IMG/VR virus record: IMGVR_UViG_3300011113_000757
Coordinates: 1 to 21,572 of that record
Length of the DNA stretch: 21,572 bases
Direction: 5' to 3' (one strand)
Origin: a virus
How positions within the stretch are numbered: the stretch's first letter is position 1; the number at the start of each line of letters is the position of its first letter. Of the stretch, positions 6,397-18,133 are shown in pieces. The notes under the pieces are model-generated. The model ran no database searches. It saw nothing but the letters and a program-made list of their open reading frames with translations, and was not told where the DNA came from. The translations under genes were made by a program, and so were the position numbers.

Positions 6397-7704
6397 TCAA
6401 CGCCAAGCACCCTTCGTCTCAGCACCATCTTGCATCGAGATGGTTAACTCAGAAGTATTGAAGTGAAGCTTGCAGCCACGTCCAAGGACCCAACCGCGCT
6501 TAACACGTGAGGGACCAGGGGCGCTACACTCACCGTCAGTGAGAATGAGCATACCGTCCCAGCGGCCACGATTCTTAGGATCATTGACTACTACGGTGGG
6601 AGCGTTGAAGTCAGTACCACCGGCACGGATGCGCTGTGGTTGAACGTTGGCACCGCGGCGCCACTCGTAGACGTCGCGAACATCAGCTTCACAGTCAAAG
6701 GGAAGAACGTCGATAGTCACCTTCTTGGTGAGACTGCCGAGCTCAGCAAAGAACTCTGCAAGCATCTCATTGTGCACAGAACCGGACTGGTCGATAGCGA
6801 TGAGGAGCTTGGCCTCGTAGCCGCGCTTCGTACCCGGGTGGATGTAAGGATAACGCTTGTTGATGCGCTTCATCGTGTTGGTGCGACCACCGCGAACCAG
6901 CTGACCCACGAATTGTCGCAGAACTTTGCGCCAGTTGATGACATTGGCCACCGACTTACGGATGGAGTCGACCAAGTCTGAAGGGATACTACCCCAACCG
7001 TTGGCCTGAGAATCTGCGGTCTTGACCGCCTTCTCGACGATAGACTTGACTTTGCCTTCCACGTACTCCTTGATCTCGTCAGGCAGCTGATCCCAGCCGC
7101 CGTGGTCGTCGAGAGAACCGATGCTGTCCATGGCCGAGGCGAAGTCCGGATCGTCCTTGGTCTTCTCGTAGATCTTCTCGAAGTACCACTCCGAGGCTTG
7201 CATGGGAGGAAGCTCAGCAATGATCTGAGACAACTTCTGGGAAGCTTTTTCAGCCTCCGTCCACTCACGACCCTCGGGATGCTTAAGCTCCCTACCAGGA
7301 ACTAGTGCGAAGTCAGGCAGGAGTCGGTCGCCTTCCAGATGACTGTTGCCACCGCGGTTTGGGTCGAGGATGATGGAGTTGATGGCCAAGTCCGTGGCGA
7401 TGTTCCACAGCTGAGGAGGCGTACGCTTACGACCGTACAAGTGGCCGAACACGAGGTGGTAGAACTCGTGGATGAGAACCCCACGAATCTCACGGGGTGA
7501 GAGGCTCGCGAAGAACTGCGGATTCCAGTACAGCACGATGTCGTCGCGCTTCTGGTCGAAGACCACAGCTGCCGTGGGCATATCTTCCGTTGGGATCTTG
7601 GTGATATGCCTCGAGAGTTCCGCGAAGAACGGAGAGTCCTGCAGAAAAGACACCAAGTGACGGTCCAGATTGAAGTCGGTTTGGCAAGCCTTGAACATAT
7701 TCAT
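6397..7704 (-). CDS. VWA-like protein with putative metallopeptidase domain
   Basis: A 435-aa protein. The N-terminal half resembles the DUF2201-type putative metallopeptidase domain: 'GVLIHEFYHLVFGHL' carries HEFYH (HExxH, residues 79-83), followed by 'NIATDLAINSII' (101-112). The C-terminal part (about 298-435) is VWA-like with 'LLIAIDQSGSV', giving the MIDAS motif DxSxS (305-309), and 'MLILTDGEC'. This two-domain arrangement is common in large phages and in bacteria, where it is linked to AAA ATPases of the MoxR kind; none is seen nearby. The gene is GC-rich (38 of 60 bases in 6601-6660) compared with the AT-rich cluster upstream (21 of 60 in 10021-10080), so it may have a separate origin. 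Role in infection unknown. Confidence 0.82.
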   Translation of the reverse strand: MNMFKACQTDFNLDRHLVSFLQDSPFFAELSRHITKIPTEDMPTAAVVFDQKRDDIVLYWNPQFFASLSPREIRGVLIHEFYHLVFGHLYGRKRTPPQLWNIATDLAINSIILDPNRGGNSHLEGDRLLPDFALVPGRELKHPEGREWTEAEKASQKLSQIIAELPPMQASEWYFEKIYEKTKDDPDFASAMDSIGSLDDHGGWDQLPDEIKEYVEGKVKSIVEKAVKTADSQANGWGSIPSDLVDSIRKSVANVINWRKVLRQFVGQLVRGGRTNTMKRINKRYPYIHPGTKRGYEAKLLIAIDQSGSVHNEMLAEFFAELGSLTKKVTIDVLPFDCEADVRDVYEWRRGANVQPQRIRAGGTDFNAPTVVVNDPKNRGRWDGMLILTDGECSAPGPSRVKRGWVLGRGCKLHFNTSELTISMQDGAETKGAWR

Positions 7705-9588: not shown

Positions 9589-9993
9589 TTAGCTCTTTTT
9601 CTTCTTCTTCTTCAATGCACTATCTTCAAACTCAGCCGAGGTTTCTTTAGGGGAATCTTCAAGAGATGCCTCAGGTGTATCGGCTGAGTCTACTTTGACG
9701 TCAGGAATTTCCTCTCGTTGACCAGTTAATTCATTAACAATCTTTGGAGGATTAAGAACAATTACACCTTCTGCCGGCGAAGATACTGTAGCAGTGCCTT
9801 TTGCTTCTGCGCCCGTTGCATCTAAAAATTCTTGTTCTTCAGGCGGGATAACGCCCATTGAATCGCAACGAGTAAGCAATAACTCGTACGTTACAATTCC
9901 AGTTTCTTCTAAAAATCTTTTTAGATTTGATTTTCTGCGCTTAAGAACATTAAGCAGTGTAACTTTTGAAATGCTTCTTTCATGAAGTCTCAT
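9589..9993 (-). CDS. unknown protein with helical head and poly-Lys tail
   Basis: A 134-aa protein. Residues 1-60 ('HERSISKVTLLNVLKRRKS', 'KRFLEETGIVTYELLLTRCD', 'GVIPPEEQEFLDA') look like a compact helical domain with a basic first helix, possibly DNA-binding. Residues 65-125 are low-complexity, rich in Glu, Ser, Thr and Pro, and the protein ends in a six-lysine stretch. The start overlaps the stop of the upstream HTH gene by four bases (ATGA type), so the two are likely made together. It precedes DNA ligase by 45 bases. Function unknown; a transcription-linked role is suggested by the coupling only. Confidence 0.58.
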   Translation of the reverse strand: MRLHERSISKVTLLNVLKRRKSNLKRFLEETGIVTYELLLTRCDSMGVIPPEEQEFLDATGAEAKGTATVSSPAEGVIVLNPPKIVNELTGQREEIPDVKVDSADTPEASLEDSPKETSAEFEDSALKKKKKKS

Positions 9994-10298
9994 TTAAATG
10001 TGATCCCTTCTTGTTGTAACTTTCTATAAGCTTCAATTTCTTGAAGAATATCACTGATGCCCTCTTGAAACTGTGGATCTTTAACGATCTGTTCAAGTTT
10101 ATCATCTGTAATATCAATGCTCCACTTTTTTGTGATTGCGTGAGCAAATTTCTTCATAACACGCAGCACATAGTTTCTTGCTGATGAATGATTCATCTTG
10201 TATCCAATCATAGTCATCATATCAGCAATCTCTCTGTAATTAGTTCCTTCTTCTGCAACTGTTGCGTATTGTGACTTATCTTTTTTACACTGTAACAT
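9990..10298 (-). CDS. small HTH protein resembling sigma region 4
   Basis: A 102-aa protein whose central part (about 18-55) 'GTNYREIADMMTMIGYKMNH' then 'SSARNYVLRVMKKFAHAI' has the form of a sigma-70 region 4.2-like helix-turn-helix: a '.YreIAd.l' first helix, a turn, and an 'S.arn.v.rvmkKfa' recognition helix. A second helical region (70-95) follows. It lies two genes downstream of a sigma factor that lacks this very region, in the same leftward cluster. A plain HTH regulator is the alternative. That it supplies region 4 function is inference. Confidence 0.6.
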   Translation of the reverse strand: MLQCKKDKSQYATVAEEGTNYREIADMMTMIGYKMNHSSARNYVLRVMKKFAHAITKKWSIDITDDKLEQIVKDPQFQEGISDILQEIEAYRKLQQEGITFK

Positions 10299-10306
10299 GT
10301 TTAAGT

Positions 10307-10546
10307 TTACTTTCTTAGTGTTTTATGTAGCGAAGAGAATCTTGCATTTTGCACTTCATCGAGTCGCGACATTAAAGCAGATCTATAGTCATTCTCTCGT
10401 TGCTGCAGTTTTTCCTCTACTTCTCTTGCTGCGTCTTGTTCTTCCATGTAGTCATTGAACTGCTTGTTCAACCTTAGCACTAAGATAATTGTGCTAAAAT
10501 CAATTAGCAGACCAAAAAGACAAATTACTGCGATTAAGCTCATCAC
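10307..10546 (-). CDS. small membrane-anchored coiled-coil protein
   Basis: A 79-aa protein. Residues 3-25 (LIAVICLFGLLIDFSTIILVL) are one strong hydrophobic segment, and residues 28-79 are a charged helix rich in Glu, Arg and Gln, likely coiled coil. No signal-peptidase site is evident, so it is probably a bitopic inner-membrane protein. Its ATG overlaps the stop of the sigma-factor gene (ATGA type), so it should be made with the sigma factor. Membrane tethering or regulation of that factor, or a lysis-related (spanin-like or holin-like) role, are both possible; neither is shown. Confidence 0.6.
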   Translation of the reverse strand: MMSLIAVICLFGLLIDFSTIILVLRLNKQFNDYMEEQDAAREVEEKLQQRENDYRSALMSRLDEVQNARFSSLHKTLRK

Positions 10547-11316
10547 GACCCTGTCATAAGAACTGACACATCACCCTCAGAGATTTTGTATTCTGAAACG
10601 TCCATGTCTTCGTCAAATAAGCCAAATCTAAGCCTGAGAATAGCAGATTCTTTTTCTGTGAGAGTTTGAAGTACATCTTGTACGATTCCAAGGAGTTCTT
10701 TAGAAGATGCTACGTGGAACGGATTGACATTCTCGTCTTCGTCTTCAATCTTCTCATCTAGTGAGCCTGAGTCAGGATCCGCAGATATCGTCTGATTAAG
10801 AGAAACAGTGTTTCGCCCCGAAGCAATAGTTGCTTTTACAACAGTTTCAGAAGCGTCAATTAATTCTAGCAATTCTTCATTTGACGGATCACATCCCATC
10901 ATTGCACGGTATTCATCAGCGGCTTGCACAATCTTCTTTTGAACAGAAGCAGCGTGCGCAGGTAGACGAATCATGCGTTTGCGTTTGAGAACATGCTGGC
11001 TGATAGCTTGCTTAATCCACCATGTCGCATAAGTTGAAAACTTAAATCCCCGCTTATAGTCAAATCGATCAATGGCCTTCAAGAGACCAAGATTTCCTTC
11101 TTGAATCAAGTCCTCAAGGGGAATATTGTGCCCCTTGTGCTTTTTTGCTATGGAAATGACTAAACGAAGATTACTCTCGACAAGCTTTTTCTTTGCTTTT
11201 TTCGCAGACTCTTCTGTACCTTCTGCATATTCCTTGAATAGGGATACTACTTCTGGGTGCTTTAAGAGTGAAAATGCTTTTAATTCTTTGAGATAGTCGT
11301 GAATGATGTCTTGCAT
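10543..11316 (-). CDS. sigma-70 family factor lacking region 4.2
   Basis: A 257-aa sigma-70 family protein. Region 1.2-like residues 1-40 are followed by region 2 (about 46-110): 'ESNLRLVISIAKKHKG', 'LEDLIQEGNLGLLKAIDRFDYKRGFKFSTYATWWIKQAISQH', which includes the core-binding and -10 melting residues. Region 3 covers about 112-175 ('RMIRLPAHAASVQKKI', 'TVSLNQTI'), and region 4.1 about 205-233 ('TEKESAILRLRFGL'). The expected region 4.2 HTH is missing: the protein ends after an unrelated acidic 24-residue tail. The downstream bases encode another protein, so this is not a simple frameshift. It should bind RNA polymerase core and the -10 element but not read a -35 element. T4 gp55, which works with gp33, is a known parallel. 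Confidence 0.9.
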   Translation of the reverse strand: MQDIIHDYLKELKAFSLLKHPEVVSLFKEYAEGTEESAKKAKKKLVESNLRLVISIAKKHKGHNIPLEDLIQEGNLGLLKAIDRFDYKRGFKFSTYATWWIKQAISQHVLKRKRMIRLPAHAASVQKKIVQAADEYRAMMGCDPSNEELLELIDASETVVKATIASGRNTVSLNQTISADPDSGSLDEKIEDEDENVNPFHVASSKELLGIVQDVLQTLTEKESAILRLRFGLFDEDMDVSEYKISEGDVSVLMTGS

Positions 11317-11328
11317 ATTACGCTTTCT

Positions 11329-11646
11329 TCAGTGCAGCATATCTCTATCTTGTGCTGCATTCTGATCAGTCTGTTGTTGAGCAGAAACTGTAAATCCAGT
11401 CGTCTTGATGTAATTCACGTGAGCCGAACGACGAACTTCTCGCACACTGATCTCTCGTTGAACGTAGCAGATTGACGTCTCAACGGCAGTTGAATCAAAT
11501 CCTTCGCGGACTGTCATGTCCCTCTCCTTGCGAAGTGAATCGTGCAAATTTCGTAGGTCGTCATCTGAAGTGTAAGCGAGGCTGTCGATTGTGAGTTGCA
11601 AGTCGTGGCTATAAAAGTTGTTCTTCTTCTGCTTCTTGTTAGACAT
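11329..11646 (-). CDS. small helical protein of unknown function
   Basis: A 105-aa protein starting 'MSNKKQKKNNFYSHDLQL'. The frame is open further upstream to 11736, but ATG 11646 is preferred: it has a purine-rich 'GAAAGAAAC' before it and avoids running deep into the gene above. The middle ('DDDLRNLHDSLRKERDMTVREGF') is an acidic/basic helix; the C-terminus is rich in Gln and Asp. No known domain is recognised. It lies just upstream of the sigma factor gene, 12 bases apart, in the same cluster. A GGGG/CCCC hairpin lies in its leader. Confidence 0.5.
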   Translation of the reverse strand: MSNKKQKKNNFYSHDLQLTIDSLAYTSDDDLRNLHDSLRKERDMTVREGFDSTAVETSICYVQREISVREVRRSAHVNYIKTTGFTVSAQQQTDQNAAQDRDMLH

Positions 11647-12443: not shown

Positions 12444-13139
12444 ATGAATGAACATTTAAAAGTTTCTGCTGAAGGACTAGAACACATTACAAAATGGGAA
12501 GGTCTGATGCTCAAGCGTTATATCTGTCCAGCCGGCAAACCCACGATCGGTGTGGGACACGTTATACTTCCCGGTGAAAATTATCAAGAGATCACCAAAG
12601 AACAGGCAATAGAAATCCTCGCAAAAGACGTGGAGAGATTTGAAAAAGCTGTCAAGAAACACATCACAGTATCTCTCAATCAGAACCAATTTGATGCTCT
12701 TGTTAGTTTTATCTTCAATACAGGTGAAGGAGGAATCATAAACACCGGAGTGCAAAAAGCAGTCAATTCAAGTGATTTCGCTAGTGTTCCTGCGAAGCTA
12801 GAAGAGTGGAGCAAGTTTCGCGTCAACGGCGTGATGAAAGTTAACAAGGGACTATTGAATCGAAGAAAATCAGAGGCTCAATTGTTCATAAAACCCATTG
12901 AAGCCGGCGCAGAAGTTCAGGATGACTCTGTTATATGGGATAAAAATACGCTTAAAGAAGCACAAACATATTTGTCAAAGATTTGCCTGTATGACAAGAG
13001 CATAGACGGATTATGGGGTCCGGGTACGTCTAGTGGATTGACACAGTTTGCAAGTCAAAACTGCGTTTCTTTGGGTGACGATCCCAAGACCAAGATTCCT
13101 CGGGCTGTGTTTGAACTATTAAAGCAAAAATCTTCTTAA
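12444..13139 (+). CDS. modular endolysin: GH24 lysozyme plus peptidoglycan-binding domain
   Basis: A 231-aa endolysin. The N-terminal two-thirds is a T4-type GH24 lysozyme: 'ITKWEGLMLKRY' carries the catalytic Glu (about 19), then 'CPAGKPTIGVGH' with the Thr (about 34) of the family triad; Cys28 stands where many members have Asp, a common variant. Later 'LNQNQFDALVSFIFNTGEG' and 'GLLNRRKSEAQLF' are typical. The C-terminal part (about 170-215) 'LKEAQTYLSKICLYDKSIDGLWGPGT' is a peptidoglycan-binding (PG_binding_1-like) module. It cleaves cell-wall glycan at lysis. ATG 12444 is chosen over GTG 12423, which gives an odd hydrophobic extension; neither has a good ribosome site. No signal or SAR segment is seen, so a holin would be expected. 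Confidence 0.92.
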   Translation: MNEHLKVSAEGLEHITKWEGLMLKRYICPAGKPTIGVGHVILPGENYQEITKEQAIEILAKDVERFEKAVKKHITVSLNQNQFDALVSFIFNTGEGGIINTGVQKAVNSSDFASVPAKLEEWSKFRVNGVMKVNKGLLNRRKSEAQLFIKPIEAGAEVQDDSVIWDKNTLKEAQTYLSKICLYDKSIDGLWGPGTSSGLTQFASQNCVSLGDDPKTKIPRAVFELLKQKSS

Positions 13140-13735
13140 AGGCCGAGTTCAAGATACTTCTTCTTGATAACTTTGTGCAAACCTGGATTAACTTTCAATG
13201 CTTCAGGTACGATTCGGTGTCTAATCAAGTTTCTCATGAACCTCACATCGCAGTTCGACTCATCTTCGATCCACGATAGTTTCTTCCTCTTGCACCATGA
13301 GATGAATTCTTTTTTCGGTGTGATTAAGAAAGGATGAACAACGTTTCCACTGGAATGAGGAATGAGTCGTGATTCACCGTGAAGAGACGTGAAGATCCAT
13401 GTCTCTATCGCATCGTCTAGATGATGGCCAGTGATCACCGGCGAATTAAAAGTCGAAAAGAACCAGTGCCGTTCATTCCGCCAGAATTCCTCAAGAGATT
13501 CTTCTTTGAGCCTGTCTCGTGACAACCTACCGATTCGAAGGTCCAATCCTCTTTCAGTAGCAAATTCTGTTACAAAGTTTAGTGCAGATGTTGATGTCTC
13601 TGTTCCATGATGAAAGAAAGCAAGATCTACTTCTTTCCTTCCATTCAAAAGGAAATCAACCACGGCAACGGAATCGACACCACCAGAAAAAGCTACCGTA
13701 CACTTGTTAGGGATTTTTCCGATAAAGCGAATCAT
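13136..13735 (-). CDS. tilS: TilS-type tRNA(Ile)-lysidine synthetase, catalytic domain
   Basis: A 199-aa PP-loop ATPase. It has 'SGGVDS' (17-22), 'GHHLDDAIETWIF' (103-115), 'VVHPFLITPKKEFISWC' and 'SWIEDESNCDVRFMRNLIRHRIVP', all in TilS order. Only the N-terminal catalytic domain is present; the C-terminal tRNA-binding domains of long TilS are absent, as in short forms. TilS turns C34 of tRNA-Ile(CAU) into lysidine, so that it reads AUA and takes Ile. The gene lies directly downstream of a CAU tRNA with a terminator between. ATG 13735 ('GATGAAGAA' before it) is preferred to an in-frame GTG at 13774. The stop overlaps the convergent endolysin gene by four bases. Confidence 0.88.
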   Translation of the reverse strand: MIRFIGKIPNKCTVAFSGGVDSVAVVDFLLNGRKEVDLAFFHHGTETSTSALNFVTEFATERGLDLRIGRLSRDRLKEESLEEFWRNERHWFFSTFNSPVITGHHLDDAIETWIFTSLHGESRLIPHSSGNVVHPFLITPKKEFISWCKRKKLSWIEDESNCDVRFMRNLIRHRIVPEALKVNPGLHKVIKKKYLELGL

Positions 13736-13784
13736 GATTTCTTCATCATAACATGCAAAAGAAAAATTTTGCACATTAACAAAT

Positions 13785-15371: not shown

Positions 15372-15932
15372 TCAAGCGATCTCGTCAGCACATCCCCACT
15401 TAAGCGCGGCTTTCGCATCGATGTACCAATCCTGCTTTCTCTTGTAGACCTTTTCAAGCTTTTCTTTTGTGATCTTTGTGTTATCGAGTGTCATCTCTTC
15501 GATCTGTCTCTGGAGGCGTTTAGCTTCAACTAGATCTTCTTCCATCTCTGCAACTTTACCCCAAACTCCTGAGCTCACCTGGTGGTACATCATTGTACCG
15601 TACTTGTGGATCGATCGATGCGCACCGTGAATTGCGATCATGAATCCGCATGACATGGCACATCCCGTGACCACCGTGTTGACCGGCGTACCCTTTGACT
15701 TCATAATCGATAGCAAACCGAAGCACTGATAGACTGCGCCACCGTACGAATCGATGTGGATGACGATGGGTTTCGGTTTGTATTCCAAGTCGTGCAACTT
15801 GAAATATCCTTCAAGATACGCATCGTGTTCGCGAATCTCTAAGATCGACTTTGACAATGCGTTCATTGTGTCTTGGTCGACTTGTTGTGCTAGAAATAAA
15901 TTTCTGTTGAGAGGCTTCTCAAGGTTTGACAT
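15372..15932 (-). CDS. clpP: ClpP-like serine protease
   Basis: A 186-aa ClpP-family protein. The catalytic serine lies in 'TGCAMSCGFMIAIHG' (Ser94), the His in 'MMYHQVSSG' (His117), and the Asp in 'KRKQDWYIDAKAALKWGCADEI' (Asp168), all in the normal order and spacing. 'PIVIHIDSYGGAVYQCFGLL' (55-74) matches the oxyanion-strand region (canonical 'INSPGG', here 'IDSYGG'). ClpP forms a two-ring barrel that degrades unfolded proteins with a Clp ATPase, here perhaps the host ClpX/A. Phage ClpP-like proteins can also act in head maturation or host takeover. No neighbour decides between these. Confidence 0.9.
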   Translation of the reverse strand: MSNLEKPLNRNLFLAQQVDQDTMNALSKSILEIREHDAYLEGYFKLHDLEYKPKPIVIHIDSYGGAVYQCFGLLSIMKSKGTPVNTVVTGCAMSCGFMIAIHGAHRSIHKYGTMMYHQVSSGVWGKVAEMEEDLVEAKRLQRQIEEMTLDNTKITKEKLEKVYKRKQDWYIDAKAALKWGCADEIA

Positions 15933-16888: not shown

Positions 16889-18133
16889 TTACTTATTAAA
16901 CTGGTGTGATTCTGTGGATTCTTTGAGCGCAAGAGTTGAAGATTGTCCTCCGCTAATCACTTTGGAGACTTCGTCAAAGTATCCTGTTCCAACTTCTCTT
17001 TGATGCTTTGTTGCTGTGTATCCAAACTGTTCAGAGTCAAATTCTGCCTGTTGCAGTTCAGAATAAGCTGCCATTCCATGATCACGGTATTTTCTTGCCA
17101 ATTCAAACATTCCATGATTTAATGAATGGAATCCAGCAAGCGTGACGAACTGGAACTTATAACCCATCGCTCCAAGCTCACGTTGGAATTTTGCAATTGT
17201 TGCATCATCAAGCTTCTTCTTCCAGTTAAATGAAGGTGAACAGTTGTATGCAAGAGGCTTGCCGGGGAACTTTGCATGGATGCCTTCAGCAAATGTCTTT
17301 GCTTCTTCCAGATCTGGTGTTGATGTTTCCATCCATATCATGTCTGCATAAGGAGCATAAGCTAATCCACGAGCGATGCATCTTTCCATTGGAGAACCGC
17401 TAAGATAGTGGAATCCTTCGGGCGTACGCTTGTTTGGTTCAATAAACGACTGATCATATGGATCAACATCGCTAGTGATTAGATTTGCAGATTCAGCATC
17501 AGTACGAGCGATGATAATCGTAGGAACATCGCAAACATCAGCAGCAAGTCGTGCTGCGATTAATGTACGAATGAATTGTGACGTTGGTACGAGAACTTTT
17601 CCACCTAGGTGACCGCACTTCTTTTCAGAAGCAAGCTGATCTTCCCAGTGTACTGCTGCAGCGCCGGCTTCGATCATTGCTTTCATCAGCTCGTAGGCAT
17701 TGAGAGGACCGCCGAAGCCTGCTTCAGCGTCTGCGACGATGGGCGTCATCCAATGCTTATCGCTGTTTGGATTCTCCGCGTGGTCGATCTGCTCAGCTCG
17801 CAGAAGAGCGCTGTTGATTCGCTTGACGACGGCAGGCACGCTATTCGCTGGATAAAGACTCTGATCAGGGTAAGTGTTGCCTGATAAATTTGCATCAGCT
17901 GCCACCTGCCAACCAGAGAGGTAGATTGCCTCAAGTCCTGCCTTGACTTGCTGTACAGCCATTGCACCCGTTGAAGCACCAAGCGCATGCACGTAAGGCT
18001 TCTCATTAAACAACTTCCAAAGCCTCTCAGCTCCGATTTTTGCTAACGTGTGTTCTACTCGAGTCTTGCCGCGAAGACGAGCAACGTCCTCAGAACTATA
18101 TGCCCTTTTAATACCTTCAAATCTGTCTCTCAT
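16889..18133 (-). CDS. aceA: isocitrate lyase (glyoxylate bypass)
   Basis: A complete 414-aa isocitrate lyase. The catalytic loop 'KKCGHLGGK' (171-179, Cys173) and the metal site in '[12 protein letters not shown]' (131-142) are present, with 'NCSPSFNW', '[14 protein letters not shown]', 'EVGTGYFD' and the C-terminal '[10 protein letters not shown]' lid end. Length is close to the E. coli enzyme (434 aa). It splits isocitrate to glyoxylate and succinate; with malate synthase (not in this window) it bypasses the two decarboxylating steps of the citric acid cycle. The gene follows a virion gene on the same strand and precedes the lipoprotein by 4 bases. A TATAAT box lies 30 bases upstream. No frameshift or missing key residue is seen, so the enzyme is probably active. 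Likely acquired from a bacterium. Confidence 0.96.

Follow-up and report, generated by a model that had tools for sequence, protein, structure and literature searches.

A conserved RpoD-like sigma factor that ends before region 4.2, and its helix-turn-helix neighbour, in uncultured jumbo phages

How a sigma factor that lacks the -35-reading half of domain 4 could work, and where that half might come from, is the question raised by this locus. The window, that is, the whole stretch of DNA analysed here, is a 21,572-base virus fragment from IMG/VR. It encodes an RpoD-like sigma factor of 257 aa, which the original prediction had described as possessing regions 2 and 3 and a 4.1-like part but no region 4.2. 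Pfam searches bear out this description, and the coordinates and reading frames on which it was based are correct. To our knowledge, sigma factors made of two parts are rare. The features of the sigma gene are as follows.

10543..11316, minus strand: RpoD-like sigma factor, 257 aa, without region 4.2 (Pfam, phrog_351, Foldseek)
10975..11184, minus strand: sigma region 2, residues 45-114 (PF04542, Sigma70_r2, E=1.6e-23)
10732..10938, minus strand: sigma region 3, residues 127-195 (PF04539, Sigma70_r3, E=2.3e-6)
10594..10674, minus strand: partial region 4, consisting of region 4.1 alone, residues 215-241 (PF04545, positions 1-24 of 50)
10546..10593, minus strand: short, semi-conserved C-terminal tail, residues 242-257, where region 4.2 is expected

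Based on these matches, regions 2 and 3 are both those of the sigma-70 family (RpoD-like, groups 1/2), in which region 2 serves core binding and -10 recognition. The Sigma70_r4 profile is matched at E=0.0077 over its first 24 positions only, which correspond to 4.1 without 4.2, and the reading frame ends approximately 20 aa past the 4.1 helix. A complete region 4 with the 4.2 helix-turn-helix (HTH) in one chain was found neither in the window sigma nor in 58 distinct relatives. Moreover, the protein matches phrog_351 at E=1.4e-55 (phrog_351 positions 481-706), and its AF2 model, which is of moderate quality (pLDDT 74.6, pTM 0.45), matches solved primary sigma factors (Foldseek, E ~1e-12).

Relatives of the sigma were confirmed 120 times in IMG/VR; 80 of these 120 were fetched, and 58 distinct proteins were read. 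All 58 stop approximately 15-35 aa downstream of the LRFG that is conserved in 4.1, so the end of the window sigma is not a local truncation. A frameshift is likewise ruled out, as the relatives all end there and region 4.2 is present in no other frame. The C-terminal tail is semi-conserved among the relatives as Yx(I/V)(S/T)xxE. In an alignment of 51 sigma sequences, the 4.1 core residues L219, K222, E223, I226, L229, R230, F231, and G232 are invariant, as expected if 4.1 still packs against something even though 4.2 is absent in cis. The DNA-facing residues and those of region 3 are also strongly conserved, for example in the FSTYATWWIKQ and RLPAH stretches. Collectively, these results indicate that the truncation before 4.2 is real, conserved, and unusual, and that it is a family-wide feature of a large group of uncultured giant (jumbo) phages.

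The closest matches of the sigma in named phages include complete sigmas and bacterial rpoD genes on apparently mislabelled contigs. One such record, Acinetobacter phage MD-2021a, carries a bacterial rpoD together with lipB and has the appearance of bacterial DNA mislabelled as phage. Additional sigma-like genes with an abnormal region 4 occur on two large contigs among the relatives (G008, 133005-133583, minus strand; G040, 85196-85429, minus strand).

The sigma gene lies in a conserved cassette, in which the original prediction had pointed to a gene two positions downstream, in the same cluster, for an HTH protein of 102 aa. This placement holds in the window and in all relatives with the locus. 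The remaining features of the cassette are as follows.

11329..11646, minus strand: gene upstream of sigma, belonging to the same conserved cassette (present in 95 of 96 loci)
10307..10543, minus strand: small protein with one predicted N-terminal transmembrane (TM) segment and an LxxRLxxxQxxRFS motif; its ATG overlaps the sigma stop codon (TGATG)
9990..10298, minus strand: 102-aa HTH protein, obligate neighbour of the sigma (96 of 96 loci; 71 of 71 in the reverse search)
10125..10238, minus strand: the two HTH helices of this protein, residues 21-58, with the near-invariant NYREIA...GF.MNHSSARNYVLRVM.KF (alignment, AF2, ECF match)
9589..9993, minus strand: 134-aa protein with no function assigned, directly after the HTH gene and overlapping its frame (95 of 96 loci)

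An HMM of the HTH protein (E<=4.1e-37) located it two genes downstream of the truncated sigma in 96/96 loci. In the reverse search from the HTH side, the truncated sigma adjoined it in 71/71 cases (70 loci and the window). A full-length sigma beside the same HTH protein, which was looked for in the related phages, was found in none of the 96 sigma-side and 71 HTH-side loci, and neither was a fused one. The reading frames of the three genes are closely joined. Overlaps of 1-4 nt (usually 1 or 4) between the sigma stop and the start of the middle gene are the rule among relatives, and the end of the middle gene often overlaps the start of the HTH gene, so that overlaps along sigma, TM protein, and HTH protein are usual across distinct loci. 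In nearly all loci, a hydrophobic segment is present at the N-terminal end of the middle protein, whose C-terminal motif is conserved as LxxRLxxxQxx(R/K)(F/Y)S; a role for this protein as a regulator of the sigma is a guess. Furthermore, the flanks of the cassette are about as syntenic, with the upstream gene and the 134-aa protein each retained in 95/96 loci and a ligase in 84/96. Therefore, the linkage is not specific to the sigma and the HTH protein, and synteny alone is no proof of partnership.

Elsewhere, the window encodes a protein of the isocitrate lyase family (16889-18133, minus strand; PF00463, E=1e-99), an unusual metabolic gene for a phage fragment. It also encodes a PP-loop protein of the TilS kind (13136-13774), a ClpP-like protease (15372-15932), and a DUF2201 metallopeptidase/VWA-like protein (6397-7704), all on the minus strand.

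The 102-aa protein had been described as carrying an HTH similar to region 4.2, a description that tentatively fits ECF-type sigma factors but not RpoD. The near-invariant core of the family, from an alignment of 56 sequences, is NYREIA..M..GF.MNHSSARNYVLRVM.KF. Neither the window protein nor the family profile gave a convincing Pfam or PHROG family; with regard to gp33, a comparison by family name showed no match to any PHROG entry labelled as a late-transcription coactivator. Compared by hhalign with ECF-type sigma region 4, the family reached 75%, with a score of 30.7, whereas no column shuffle out of 150 scored above 17.6 (0/150), the reference being a small set of five ECF sequences (one bacterial MAG). 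The value was 7.5% for a LuxR/GerE control of eight sequences, six of them entered by hand, and 0.3% for canonical sigma-70 region 4, where 47/150 shuffles scored equally high. These three values therefore assign the HTH to the sigma4/LuxR superclass, and they are suggestive, not proof, of ECF region 4 as its nearest kin, with a longer turn. Direct homology to canonical sigma 4.2 gave no signal in the profile comparison, and direct homology to the distal Cys4 protein described below gave none either. At the sensitivity used, searches of 84,980 species genomes and 50,697 phage records yielded no copy of the HTH protein, which ties it to the sigma-bearing phage group.

In its AF2 model, the HTH protein has helices at residues 21-30 and 37-58 (block pLDDT ~88-97) and a C-terminal helical pair, with no significant structural match (Foldseek/VIA-align). 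The model contains no 4.1-like helix pair ahead of the two HTH helices. As modelled, the protein is thus complementary to the sigma, which retains the 4.1 helices without the remainder.

The most likely single explanation, to which we give somewhat less than an even chance on sequence grounds, is that the neighbouring HTH protein provides region 4.2 as a separate chain. The truncated sigma would bind host core RNA polymerase via regions 2, 3, and 4.1, with its RpoD-like region 2 opening the promoter. What the sigma chain has lost, the recognition half of domain 4, would be provided in trans by the co-encoded 102-aa protein, whose two HTH helices would pack on the 4.1 helices still present in the sigma and keep upstream promoter DNA in place at the beta flap. 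The membrane-anchored small protein from the gene in between may hold or release one of the pieces. Binding between the sigma and the HTH protein, the reading of DNA, polymerase binding, and the role of the membrane protein are what we infer here. The presence of the HTH protein at every sigma locus, and never apart from the sigma in 71 sequences, argues for this explanation. Similarity to canonical sigma-70 4.2 is absent, although the sigma is RpoD-like, and the same phages encode a second, clearer region 4.2 protein; both count against it. As regards the two-part sigma of the original prediction, the family-wide absence of 4.2, the obligate neighbour, the greater closeness of the HTH to ECF than to LuxR/GerE, and the lack of any full-length sigma alongside all stand in its favour, whereas the equally syntenic flanks and the better 4.2 match located distally weaken it.

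The missing region 4.2 has two candidates because larger relatives also encode this distal protein, which was out of sight of the original prediction since the window is a 21.6 kb fragment. It is a small protein of ~85-95 aa in which a C-x10-C-x4-C-x11-C (Cys4) motif, which probably binds metal, precedes a genuine sigma-70 region 4.2 HTH, and a small distal protein exceeds the Pfam region-4 cut-off in 7/10 of the larger relatives' contigs. If the Cys4 protein supplied the missing 4.2, the adjacent HTH protein would be a separate regulator. The fit to the sigma is close: the Cys4 proteins match PF04545 at positions 12/21-50 (E 7e-9 to 2e-8, over the cut-off), complementing positions 1-24 of the sigma; they match phrog_351 at 685-726, where the sigma covers 481-706; and hhalign gives 94% versus canonical sigma region 4 (0/60 shuffles). 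Moreover, the protein is present in 11/14 sigma-bearing contigs and in 8/9 of those >=187 kb. However, its gene is unlinked to the truncated sigma gene, lying roughly 40-100 kb away in the larger relatives, and among 43 medium-size contigs with the Cys4 protein, all of them fragments, the truncated sigma was present in 4 and seen in none of the other 39. The same genomes also encode a gp55-like late sigma (phrog_234), found in 31/43 of these Cys4 contigs, and gp55 may therefore be the Cys4 partner, although this bias is only a hint, given that these contigs are incomplete and that the distance from the Cys4 gene to gp55 is shorter than that to the truncated sigma. In the named phages that encode gp55-like proteins, neither a Cys4 protein nor a region 4 above the cut-off was present, which makes them uninformative on the Cys4 partner. 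Taken together, we regard completion by the Cys4 protein, the second of the trans models, as unlikely. An arrangement with two split sigmas per jumbo phage genome, namely, an RpoD-like sigma broken inside domain 4 with its ECF-like HTH operon partner, and a gp55-like late sigma with the distal Cys4 protein and its real -35-reading region 4.2, likewise seems unlikely.

Promoter motifs in the relatives bear on whether any 4.2 is needed. A single box, (A/C)TA(C/T/G)TTA, unaccompanied by a -35 element, lies ~20-35 nt upstream of the start codons of many long ORFs and recurs in relatives G001, G002, and G003 (12 vs 2, 9 vs 1, and 8 vs 1 ORFs, motif versus control interval); in G025, it precedes 3 vs 1 ORFs only. 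Such a box would suit a sigma that works without any 4.2 and reads a -10-type element alone, while the HTH protein would be an ordinary DNA-binding regulator placed in the same cassette by chance; the HTH family, which has no Pfam or PHROG family, could be generic, and the entire cassette is syntenic. However, the gp55-like late sigma of the same genomes explains the single box at least equally well, the 4.1 core is invariant despite the absence of 4.2 in cis, and the HTH protein is never apart from the truncated sigma; we regard this reading as unlikely, if slightly less so than completion by the Cys4 protein. It is highly improbable that the truncated sigma directs no phage promoters but occupies host core polymerase and shuts off host transcription, with the HTH and membrane proteins tuning it. 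Its incomplete domain 4 and conserved core-binding region 2 would agree with such a function, but strong conservation of DNA-facing residues and of region 3 would be superfluous in a mere blocker.

A two-box leaderless promoter, GTGNAA-N18-GGTANNNT-N6-ATG, precedes many small ORFs in G001, G002, and G025. The signal is pronounced among the GC-rich relatives (66 vs 3, 38 vs 0, and 18 vs 2) and not enriched in AT-rich G003 (5 vs 3), which has the same sigma and HTH pair. For this reason, we tentatively assign it to a host sigma, on which it probably depends. On sequence grounds, neither the single box nor the two-box class is attributed to the truncated sigma. Late promoters of the T4 type (TATAAATA) are not enriched.

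At least 166 relatives of the Cys4 protein were confirmed in IMG/VR, and none at E<=1e-3 in phage records. In many large phage contigs, a free-standing protein with Cys4 and region 4.2 is encoded near a PhoH-like gene, and two such genes lie side by side on a Halobacteriovorax MAG contig, probably phage DNA binned along. The gp55-like late sigma occurs in 39/53 large phage contigs and shows weak similarity to proteins from Flavobacterium phage immuto and Microcystis phage Mel-JY01.

If the HTH protein does complete the sigma, a widespread natural break inside domain 4 would mean that the half which reads the -35 element can exist as a subunit of its own, open to exchange. A sigma split at this point would be a natural AND-gate, and flap binding and -35 recognition could be pulled apart for testing. 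As reported for SigO-RsoA, the known bacterial two-part sigma, one sigma activity can arise from two polypeptides, both of which are required, with domain 2 on RsoA and domain 4 on SigO as separate chains (PMC10028694). Completion by the HTH protein would resemble this system in building sigma activity from two polypeptides. In contrast, the break in SigO-RsoA lies between domains, whereas in the window domains 2 and 4 are not divided between polypeptides; regions 2, 3, and 4.1 share one chain, which is broken off inside domain 4.

The parallel with T4 that accompanied the original prediction is loose. For gp55, a sigma without region 4, gp33 stands in for that region at the beta flap, together with the clamp gp45; gp33 does not bind DNA alone and is structurally unrelated to sigma region 4 (PMC7892883). 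The window sigma differs in being RpoD-like, with region 3 and 4.1, and it matches phrog_351 and not the gp55-type phrog_234; a gp55-like protein is encoded by a separate gene in the same genomes. Jumbo phages of the RaK2/121Q/GAP32 type also have an RpoD-like sigma, but that of Klebsiella phage K64-1 (300 aa) is a single chain whose region 4 is complete, though diverged, and matches canonical region 4 at 94.5%. The novelty is limited because a survey of jumbo phages already reports that those of 'group 2' have a minimal sigma with a single HTH as well as a fuller one of the RpoD type (Iyer et al. 2021, PMC7824862). The passages considered describe no RpoD-like sigma that stops after 4.1 beside an invariably present HTH gene. 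Relative to both SigO-RsoA and T4 gp55-gp33, a sigma broken inside domain 4 would be a new form within a known kind of system, the two-part sigma factor.
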